From Traorella massiliensis (lineage in GTDB: Bacteria; Bacillota_I; Bacilli_A; Erysipelotrichales; Erysipelotrichaceae), in assembly GCF_900104665.1 (NCBI RefSeq), contig NZ_LT629967.1:214242-278241 (forward strand): a stretch of DNA of 64,000 nt. The letters are read 5' to 3'. The notes under the pieces were generated by a model. The model worked only from the letters and a program-made list of their open reading frames with translations. It did no database searches and was not told where the DNA came from. How positions within the stretch are numbered: the first letter of the stretch is position 1; every line of letters begins with the position of its first letter. The translations under genes were made by a program, and so were the position numbers. Below are positions 1,103 to 59,108 of this stretch, piece after piece.

Positions 1103-1325
1103 AAATAAAAAAGCGTCTTCATTATGAAGACGCTTATAGCGCGGTGCCACCTCATTTGCCGACAAATTGGTCGACCTCTCAACTCTTAATGCGAGTACAC
1201 AGTTGCCTTACTTTCATACAGCAACATCTCCAAAGCTCGTTTCATTTCCTTCCAGTATCAGTTTTCACCAGCCACTGACTCTCTATAACTTTCCAAAAAC
1301 TACTACTCTTTTTCATCGATGTTGA
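1103..1325 (-). promoter_or_regulatory. T-box leader, probable specifier CGA (Arg)
   Basis: On the minus strand the leader carries the T-box core AGGTGGCACCGCG (1140-1152), an AGAGAG element and GTTATAGAG start of stem I near 1285, and the TTTGGAG block that follows the specifier loop (about 1222-1228). A perfect 10-bp terminator AAGCGTCTTC/GAAGACGCTT (1111-1135) is followed by a T-rich tail. Aligning the specifier region with the methionine T-box in this window (ATG then 3 nt then TTGGAG) puts CGA in the specifier position; ACG (Thr) one frame earlier is the alternative. T-boxes sense uncharged tRNA and antiterminate, so transport would be induced on arginine starvation. Confidence 0.88.
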
Positions 1326-21159: not shown

Positions 21160-21432
21160 AAAAACTCGCCCTATATAAGGGCGAGTGTATTCGCGTTACC
21201 ACCTTAGTTTAAAATAATCTCACGATTATTTCCTCATCAAGTACGTCCTATAAGGATTATACTCTATCACTGTAACGGGTGAACCCGTCATAGCCTAACC
21301 ATTTTGGTTCGGTATGCAACTCCAAGGCCATTTTCATTCATCTTCCATCGTTCTTTCACACCAGCCAAGAACTCTCTTTAGACTTTCAATGAATTACTTT
21401 TCTTTTCATCGTCTTTATTGTATTGTTGGTAT
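21160..21432 (-). promoter_or_regulatory. T-box leader, methionine specifier (ATG)
   Basis: Minus-strand leader upstream of metQ. T-box core AAGGTGGTAACGCG (21191-21205), terminator stem ACTCGCCCT/AGGGCGAGT (21164-21186) with a T run, AGAGAG box and GGCTGGTG of stem I near 21365, and specifier region GAAAATGGCCTTGGAG, with ATG three bases before TTGGAG. It should antiterminate when tRNA-Met is uncharged. The methionine operon downstream fits. Confidence 0.93.
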
Positions 21433-24153: not shown

Positions 24154-24302
24154 AGCAGAGTAGAGATATATGCGTTAAGTATTAACTGAACGGGGAGTTG
24201 TCAGTTAGGCGAAAAGATTTTCTTGCGATATATATCTCGCATCCCACTGTTGCATGAAAATCGCAGAATGCCTCTTTTTCATGACAATGGTAGAAAAGGA
24301 GG
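24154..24302 (+). promoter_or_regulatory. Tetrahydrofolate riboswitch with Shine-Dalgarno-sequestering stem
   Basis: The aptamer (about 24154-24253) contains GAGTAGA, TGCGTTAAGTAT, GAACGGGGAGTTGTC and the closing CTCGCATCCCACTG, the conserved landmarks of the THF (folT) riboswitch class. Downstream, CCTCTTTTTC (24271-24280) can pair over 10 positions (one G-U) with GAAAAGGAGG (24293-24302), the ribosome site of folT. Regulation is thus probably at translation: one fold hides the SD. Ligand specificity is from family knowledge. Confidence 0.87.
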
Positions 24303-58080: not shown

Positions 58081-58101
58081 GAAAAAGGCATGAATCATGC
58101 C
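58081..58101 (-). terminator. Short hairpin with T tail directly upstream of the GNAT gene
   Basis: Palindrome GGCATGATTCATGCC followed on the minus strand by TTTTTC, about 20 nt before the GNAT start. Acts either as an attenuator or as a terminator for an unseen minus-strand transcript. Confidence 0.4.
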
Positions 58102-58215
58102 CCAACATATTTATTATAACACAAAAAAAAATAAATTATAAGACTGTTTCTATAGCATAAATAAGGTATTATATAAGTGTAAAAAGACAGAACATCTGAA
58201 AGGAGGAAATGTCTT

Positions 58216-58242
58216 ATGAAAGAGGTTTTAAAAGAAATTTAG
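58216..58242 (+). CDS. Nine-codon mini-ORF at the 5' end of the RNA candidate
   Basis: AAGGAGG 9 nt before an ATG that reads MKEVLKEI and stop. The SD lies in the loop of the AAGACA/TGTCTT stem. It may be a genuine leader or only chance purines in the RNA; I cannot tell. Confidence 0.25.
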   Translation: MKEVLKEI

Positions 58243-58992
58243 TTCGTTTCCTATGAAGCCTGACAGAACTTCATGAGGAAACTAAAAATCTTATTTATGT
58301 TTTAAAAAGAAAGTGTTTTCTGTGAGAGGGCAGACCAATGGACAGAGAAGAGGAGAAGAACTAAAACTGAATATATAAAAAGTCTACCGCAGTGTAGAAA
58401 AAATAGATAAATGATCTATTTATAGATACGGCTTATTTATGATTGAAATGTTGTAAGAAATCATTAATTTATAATGATTGAATTCTAACGAATCCCCCTG
58501 TGCTTATAAACAGAAATAGTTAGATATTCAATAAATTATATAAAATGAATAAAATAACTTTCTCATTAAGCCCTAAGGATCTTATAAAAAAATCGATGAT
58601 CCCATCGTTGACAAATCGAAAGAGATTTACATATAGATGGCTTCATACTTGAATTGTCAGAAACAATTCTAAGAAATAAATTATAGAATGTTTTAATGAT
58701 TTAAAATAGAAAAAACGATGATTTGGATATAAATGAGAGTTTAATGTGTCGTTCTTCCTATAGAAATCAAACAAACAAATGTAATTATATTTCCTTCCAA
58801 ATTAAATGATTCCATGTTTATAAAGGAGGCTTTTCAATAGATGGATTCATATAAAGAATGAACAATGAAGATCTAAGTATTTAGAAGATTCAAGACAGAG
58901 TTATCTAAAAACTAGAGACGTTGATTATATGAATTTTATGAATATGGTTCCATCGCTTATAAATTGAAAGTATTCATATAACTGGCTTCGTA

Positions 58993-59024
58993 AAGAGATT
59001 GTCTAAAATGACAATCTCTTTTTT
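58993..59024 (+). terminator. Strong terminator of the RNA candidate
   Basis: Perfect 10-bp stem AGAGATTGTC/GACAATCTCT, loop of about 6 nt, then a run of seven T. Confidence 0.9.
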
Positions 59025-59108
59025 TACGGGAATTTCAATAAAATTTTATGAAATATGATATTTTTTTATGAATTTCTCCTTTATAATATAAGAGTTGAGG
59101 AGGACTTT

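Follow-up and report, generated by a model that had tools for sequence, protein, structure and literature searches.

The window analysed here is a 64-kb stretch of a contig of Traorella massiliensis, in which an RNA gene of approximately 850 nt (58179-59027) lies in an ordinary chromosomal context beside GNAT-like and HAD genes. It is a real, conserved gene in which a folding switch lies between two tiny coding frames, and it is the enlarged member, in the genus Traorella, of an RNA family that apparently has never been described before, since neither the window locus nor ten relatives have an Rfam match at the gathering threshold, and a keyword search of the main text of open-access papers returned no description of the family. 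The same kind of search found four peptides of micro-ORF 1 in no open-access paper, and no open-access paper on small RNA in Traorella. Two T-box leaders and a THF riboswitch elsewhere in the window (1123-1325, minus strand; 21174-21418, minus strand; 24154-24251, plus strand) are ordinary. The predicted transcription unit, from the -10 box to the end of the terminator at about 59027, agrees well with the boundaries given in a preliminary description of the same DNA (58176-59024), which had proposed a structured RNA devoid of ORFs. The structure is borne out by the fold of the 850-nt strand (z -7.4: -191.7 kcal/mol, whereas dinucleotide shuffles give -147.8 ± 6.0 and none of 20 is as good), and the compensatory changes expected in relatives occur in a hairpin, a pseudoknot and the terminator. 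No ORF of at least 60 aa is present in 58176-59024, but two micro-ORFs of eight codons each had been overlooked. The features of the promoter region and the switch are:

58081-58106, minus strand: predicted divergent tiny RNA, with +1 at 58106, a hairpin at 58103-58085, then a U run, and its -10 box at 58118-58113
58141-58145, plus strand: promoter element AGACT, assigned from its sequence, exactly 21 bp on the 5' side of the -10 box
58167-58172, plus strand: -10 box TATTAT, with the transcription start expected near 58179
58184-58215, plus strand: hairpin P0, assigned by folding, 58184-58189 pairing with 58210-58215 and enclosing SD1
58200-58206, plus strand: SD1, AAGGAGG, within P0
58216-58242, plus strand: micro-ORF 1, MKEVLKEI-stop
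58246-58282, plus strand: hairpin P1, with 7 bp, a bulged G at 58275, 6 bp and a 10-nt loop
58263-58268, plus strand: ACAGAA of the P1 loop, one side of the pseudoknot, assigned by comparing cognate with swapped pairs
58318-58323, plus strand: UUCUGU, the other side of the pseudoknot, overlapping the 5' arm of P2
58319-58334, plus strand: hairpin P2 around SD2, UCUGU (58319-58323) pairing with GCAGA (58330-58334)
58324-58329, plus strand: SD2, GAGAGG, closed in the P2 loop
58338-58364, plus strand: micro-ORF 2, MDREEEKN-stop

DNA searches of the window's genome and four congeners (G000-G004), assigned to Traorella by an exact pattern search, identified the first ~190 nt of the RNA as a dispersed module. 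A first covariance model (R1), built from 12 Traorella sequences, matched the module in 19 of 146 genomes of the family; a second (R2), built from 42 sequences, gave matches in 86 genomes of the order (316 searched), which belong to 13 genera that all lie within the window's GTDB family (Erysipelotrichaceae). Six of the 395 genomes in a sample of the class were matched by R2, all from that GTDB family and none from outside it, and a less strict search of 40 genomes of the order gave one borderline match in the sister family (E 0.008). There are up to seven matches per genome, and in g21, g11, g20 and g32 the ORF-hairpin module is arranged in tandem, two to four times per presumed transcript. 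Plasmids searched by blastn had no match to the module, and viral contigs had none to the strict motif pattern.

Two kinds of copy can be distinguished. The module of a free-standing copy opens a gene-less RNA that ends at a terminator (the window, G001, G002, G003 and G004), and that of a leader-type copy (other copies in G000, G002 and G003) lies roughly 190-440 nt upstream of a gene for an exported protein, such as an F5/8 type C domain protein (L004) or a C39-like peptidase (L017); several other genes of this group have no Pfam match and a signal-like sequence at the start. Most copies stand free, in some cases with modules in tandem, and some Traorella copies are secreted-protein leaders; in most genomes outside Traorella, free copies and few leader copies were seen. 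The leader-type copies of Traorella have a weak pseudoknot (3-4 bp) and a differing peptide end (FI, LIIFVSCIG). Between micro-ORF 2 and the main AUG of three copies (L005, L017 and L022), the main ORF has no SD at the normal distance; CCUAAAAUUA/UAAUUUUAGG encloses an AAGGAG in its loop, and between this SD and the main AUG is a smaller hairpin that seems, by eye, to covary (UGCUU/AAGCA, UUUUU/AAAAA). The ORFs of L022 (249-881 and 878-1066, counted from micro-ORF 1) encode a secreted protein whose C-terminal stretch is hydrophobic and rich in glycine, then a 62-aa membrane protein; the two have no Pfam match and resemble bacteriocin and immunity pairs. About 320 nt after micro-ORF 1 of a g3 copy, L117 has a 114-aa ORF with a leader-like start (ENVTGG) and repeated SLT/SLI units, possibly an exported or modified peptide.

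The -10 box is conserved as TATTAT, TATACT or TATATT, followed by a GTAAGTG-like sequence, and its spacing of 21 bp from AGACT is common, by eye, to the inspected copies of all genera. On the other strand, AGACT is 22 bp from a divergent extended -10 box (TGnTATAAT). In all genera, most of the free-standing copies have the pattern TATAAT-N6-GTTGRGG-hairpin-T run, which leader-type copies lack. The divergent transcript is predicted to be an RNA of ~25-30 nt. Examples of the pattern are the window (58106-58081, minus strand), L024, L026, L045, L053, L064, L087, L090, L102 and others. Antisense pairing of this tiny RNA with the large RNA, assessed with 12-nt 5' ends, was overall no better than with shuffles. 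Upstream of two leader-type copies (L029 and L037), on the opposite strand, a divergent transcript has coding potential for a small hydrophobic peptide (ILLYLLQSVILLFIVIFFLRKRVT; ILLYLLWKNIIIF), which is followed by a terminator-like hairpin and resembles type I toxins.

P0, which encloses SD1, pairs better within cognate sequences (12.7) than in non-cognate combinations (10.56 ± 0.20; 0 of 100 permutations as good) in a test that, like those for the pseudoknot and P2, was of our own design; relatedness among the copies is allowed for only in a reduced version of the pseudoknot test. Micro-ORF 1 has eight codons in 80 of 113 copies and nine in 21, with the peptide consensus MK[KE][VI]L[LK]E[YIF]. 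Among 67 unique ORFs, 38 of 45 single-base differences, in pairs that are not independent of one another, are synonymous (20.7% expected); at codon 5 each of the six leucine codons is represented, and the ORFs make use of every stop codon. Because of this pattern, micro-ORF 1 is very probably translated, with its product or nascent form under selection. Branched-chain amino-acid sensing through V/I-L-L was considered and rejected: K replaces L6 and Y or F replaces I8, and therefore micro-ORF 1 carries no clear amino-acid signal.

P1 starts 30 nt after the A of the AUG in the window, where it folds with a z of -4.6, and a bulged purine splits it into 7 and 6 bp. Among 42 sequences (40 distinct) it is 95.7% paired, with two-sided changes in 10 of 13 pairs and a covariation score of 0.475 against 0.142 (0 of 500 shuffles reach the score), and among about 114 sequences all 13 pairs have two-sided changes, in alignments (A2 and A3) fitted to a model that already contained P1 and hence biased towards it. 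The signal is lost on sliding the partner arm. In 72 of 107 predicted folds, P1 starts 30-32 nt downstream of the first base of the AUG, and since this distance is the same for micro-ORFs of 8, 9, 10 or 15 codons, P1 is tied to codon 8 and the AUG, not to the stop codon. With codon 8 in the P site, the usual ribosome footprint would cover about the first seven bases of P1, which are its lower stem.

The loop of P1 forms a pseudoknot with bases adjoining SD2. Cognate pairing scored 13.02 in 75 copies, compared with 10.49 ± 0.23 for swapped pairs, and 15.24 in 16 representatives, the version of the test in which relatedness was reduced, compared with 11.7 ± 0.58 (0 of 2000 permutations as good). 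The partner ends 0-3 nt before the core of SD2 in 15 of the 16 representatives and 11 nt before it in g11. The pairs differ in sequence as follows:

Window: ACAGAA/UUCUGU
g32, g38 and g45: UGCAGA/UCUGCA
g36: CCAGA/UCUGG
g21b: UAACAC/GUGUUG
g18 and g49: UGUAGAU/GUCUACA
g3: UAAUCAGC/GCUGAUUA and UUCUAAGAGU/ACUCUUAGAA

In most copies, the window's among them, the pseudoknot and P2 compete for shared bases and are mutually exclusive. The signal for P2 (cognate 11.8, non-cognate 11.1 ± 0.15; 0 of 100) is weaker than those for P0 and the pseudoknot, and P2 is not a universally conserved helix, being absent in some genera (g21a). A long-range GGU/ACC pairing proposed by RNAalifold showed no covariation and was discarded. 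Downstream, a short ORF occupies the place of micro-ORF 2 in nearly all copies, with five codons in 55 of 103 and mostly an MD start, in counts that include some wrong automatic assignments. Its sequence is weakly conserved; the AUG is argued to be a working start because in L049 it opens a longer reading frame.

The 3' domain of the window comprises:

58365-58375, plus strand: motif AACUGAAUAUA following micro-ORF 2, present in 34 of 84 copies
58383-58421, plus strand: two hairpins (58383-58398 and 58401-58421), fold z -3.9
58596-58646, plus strand: first copy of a repeated module, a compound hairpin kept in G002, G003 and G004
58837-58851, plus strand: partial copy of the repeated module (repeat family D2)
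58949-58991, plus strand: further copy of the repeated module (repeat families D1, D2 and D5)
58992-59027, plus strand: intrinsic terminator, with compensatory changes in G002

The terminator recognized in the preliminary description is confirmed: a 12-bp inverted repeat without mismatch (58992-59003/59010-59021) precedes a T7 run. The long repeated motif described there exists in shorter form, as 34 nt at 71% identity (58630/58975) and a 15-nt core at 58633, 58837 and 58978 (80-93%). The two hairpins have paired changes in G003 and G004, read from the alignment, and both of these genomes have the repeated module once, shortly upstream of the terminator. The 3' domains of the window and G002 are 67% identical, and both partners differ between them in 13 of 113 consensus pairs. 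Because only these two have the longer 3' domain with further repeat copies, the length of 850 nt is a lineage feature, and the repeats were added to the 3' domain in this lineage specifically: the remaining copies in Traorella reach ~450 nt, those of other genera are mostly 250-400 nt long, and from the first AUG to the T run the median is 307 nt (44 copies in which a simple finder located a terminator). The repeats were also considered as further micro-ORFs (an SD and MDSYKE near 58826-58858), which are not kept in relatives.

We consider, with a probability of roughly 0.55, that this is a ribosome-gated switch RNA gene of a family-restricted class, in which a pause near codon 8 would open P1, flip the pseudoknot against P2 and control SD2 and the downstream RNA. 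Comparison of the copies demonstrates micro-ORF 1, P0, P1, the pseudoknot, P2 (in most copies), the promoter and the terminator; we infer the pause, the direction of the switch and the action in trans. A ribosome would load on SD1 within P0 and translate the octapeptide MK[KE][VI]LLE[YIF]; as P1 begins 30-32 nt from the AUG whatever the length of the ORF, a ribosome paused at about codon 8 would open the lower 7-bp stem. The P1 loop may pair just 5' of SD2 in the pseudoknot, or those bases may instead pair 3' of SD2 in P2; because the two compete, the state of P1 would select between an SD2 flanked by the pseudoknot and an SD2 closed off in P2. The state of SD2 would then set the translation of micro-ORF 2 and the folding or fate of the downstream RNA. 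The RNA probably senses how ribosomes move along it. The output of leader-type Traorella copies would be the mRNA of a secreted protein, and for free-standing copies, including the window's, the probable output is a regulatory RNA that works by means of its variable 3' domain.

More tentatively, the free-standing copies may form a regulatory RNA class of their own, in which an octapeptide ORF, a hairpin locked to codon 8 and a loop-to-SD pseudoknot make up a gene-independent, ribosome-driven switch that can be multiplied in tandem, that has a bidirectional promoter with a divergent RNA of ~25 nt, and that has been co-opted as a leader of secreted proteins. If the proposed switch is true, leader-peptide switches are not confined to gene leaders: a whole bacterial family maintains them as RNA genes in their own right, with at most seven module copies per genome. 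They would then be a compact system in which to test how a pseudoknot over a ribosome-binding site is steered by a nascent octapeptide together with a hairpin at fixed distance, and would add a clearly structured RNA family of gut bacteria, coding and structural at once, that is missing from Rfam.

The strongest competitor, although an unlikely one, is a cis-acting transcription attenuator, in which micro-ORF 1 with P1, the pseudoknot and P2 would set read-through of the terminator into the next gene (in the window that of a HAD hydrolase, in g32 and g49 that of aminopeptidase P). Many copies have the terminator, an HAD gene recurs beside the RNA in Traorella and g20, and the aminopeptidase P-like gene that often directly follows the RNA in g32 and g49 (L091, L094, L098, L100, L109, L113, L114 and L123) makes a role in cis possible in those two genera. 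The next gene is on the same strand in 49 of 85 free-standing copies, in keeping with this reading, but on the opposite strand in 36, and such a mixture argues against a fixed attenuator and favours an RNA acting by itself; neighbours vary among genera, and downstream genes often have promoter-like sequences of their own. Next in rank, and improbable, is the octapeptide itself as the product, a signal or effector peptide whose translation the RNA structures merely tune. It would account for the strong conservation of amino acids and the tandem ORF copies in single transcripts, whereas an mRNA for a peptide needs neither a hairpin tied to the AUG rather than the stop codon nor a conserved long-range pseudoknot to SD2, and the peptide has no export signal. 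Ranking after both, and also improbable, is a decoy, in which the 5' module would be the binding site of a factor controlling the leader-type mRNAs and the free-standing copies would titrate that factor. The same module does occur in secreted-protein leaders and free RNAs within one genome, and in tandem, but a binding site need not preserve the amino acids of micro-ORF 1, in which synonymous changes dominate, and most genomes outside Traorella have few leader copies and mostly free ones.

Scarcely credible, in comparison, is a large ornate RNA of the GOLLD, ROOL or OLE kind or an extensively decayed gene, as the preliminary description had suggested from the 850-nt size, strong folding and internal repeats. 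Beyond the window species, such size and repeats occur only in its nearest relative, the RNAs of the relatives being mostly 250-450 nt long, and the conserved core is a two-ORF switch of ~150 nt. Among the Rfam covariance-model matches of the window locus at E ≤ 10 there is no GOLLD, ROOL or OLE. A decayed gene is contradicted by the conserved promoter and micro-ORFs, the covarying hairpin and pseudoknot, the synonymous drift of micro-ORF 1 and the compensated terminator; the free-standing Traorella copies have no longer frame at the locus, and the RNA shows strong structural covariation instead.

GOLLD, ROOL and OLE are long, strongly folded bacterial RNAs of unknown function (PMC12286853), a description that the window RNA shares. 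They are excluded as families: the window RNA has ORFs in its short core and lacks a covariance-model match, and the phage, prophage or tRNA-island context that is a trait of GOLLD and ROOL was not found, there being no tRNA gene in the 64 kb, neighbours that are GNAT-like and HAD genes, and no strict-pattern match in viral contigs. In the GC-IGR surveys, uORF and sORF motifs are described as intergenic, with conserved start and stop codons and RNA structure (PMC11109978, PMC6429828). These attributes are shared by the RNA family described here; unlike it, the uORF motifs, as described there, precede a consistent gene.

The family can also be compared with two better-known systems. Dual-function regulatory RNAs, such as RNAIII/hld and SgrS/SgrT, are of regulatory size and also encode a peptide, as do the RNAs of this family. 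VcdRP is another (PMC8672173). Unlike them, the RNAs described here have two ORFs of 5-10 codons inside a conserved structure, with coding and structure interlocked. The leader-peptide translational attenuators of the erm, cat, cmlA, tnaC and speFL types share with this family a short ORF with a strong SD, a hairpin whose distance is fixed and, further downstream, mutually exclusive structures that involve a second SD. Translation of the short ORF is indicated here by the codon pattern (38 of 45 differences synonymous), and the exclusive structures are the pseudoknot and P2, the latter lacking in g21a. The differences are a loop-to-SD2 pseudoknot, tandem modules, the lack of a known inducer and an output that is another micro-ORF or an RNA domain. 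The device would work like a leader-peptide attenuator, mostly in a free-standing RNA that lacks the defining regulated gene directly downstream (36 of 85 next genes being on the opposite strand), which only the leader-type copies possess.
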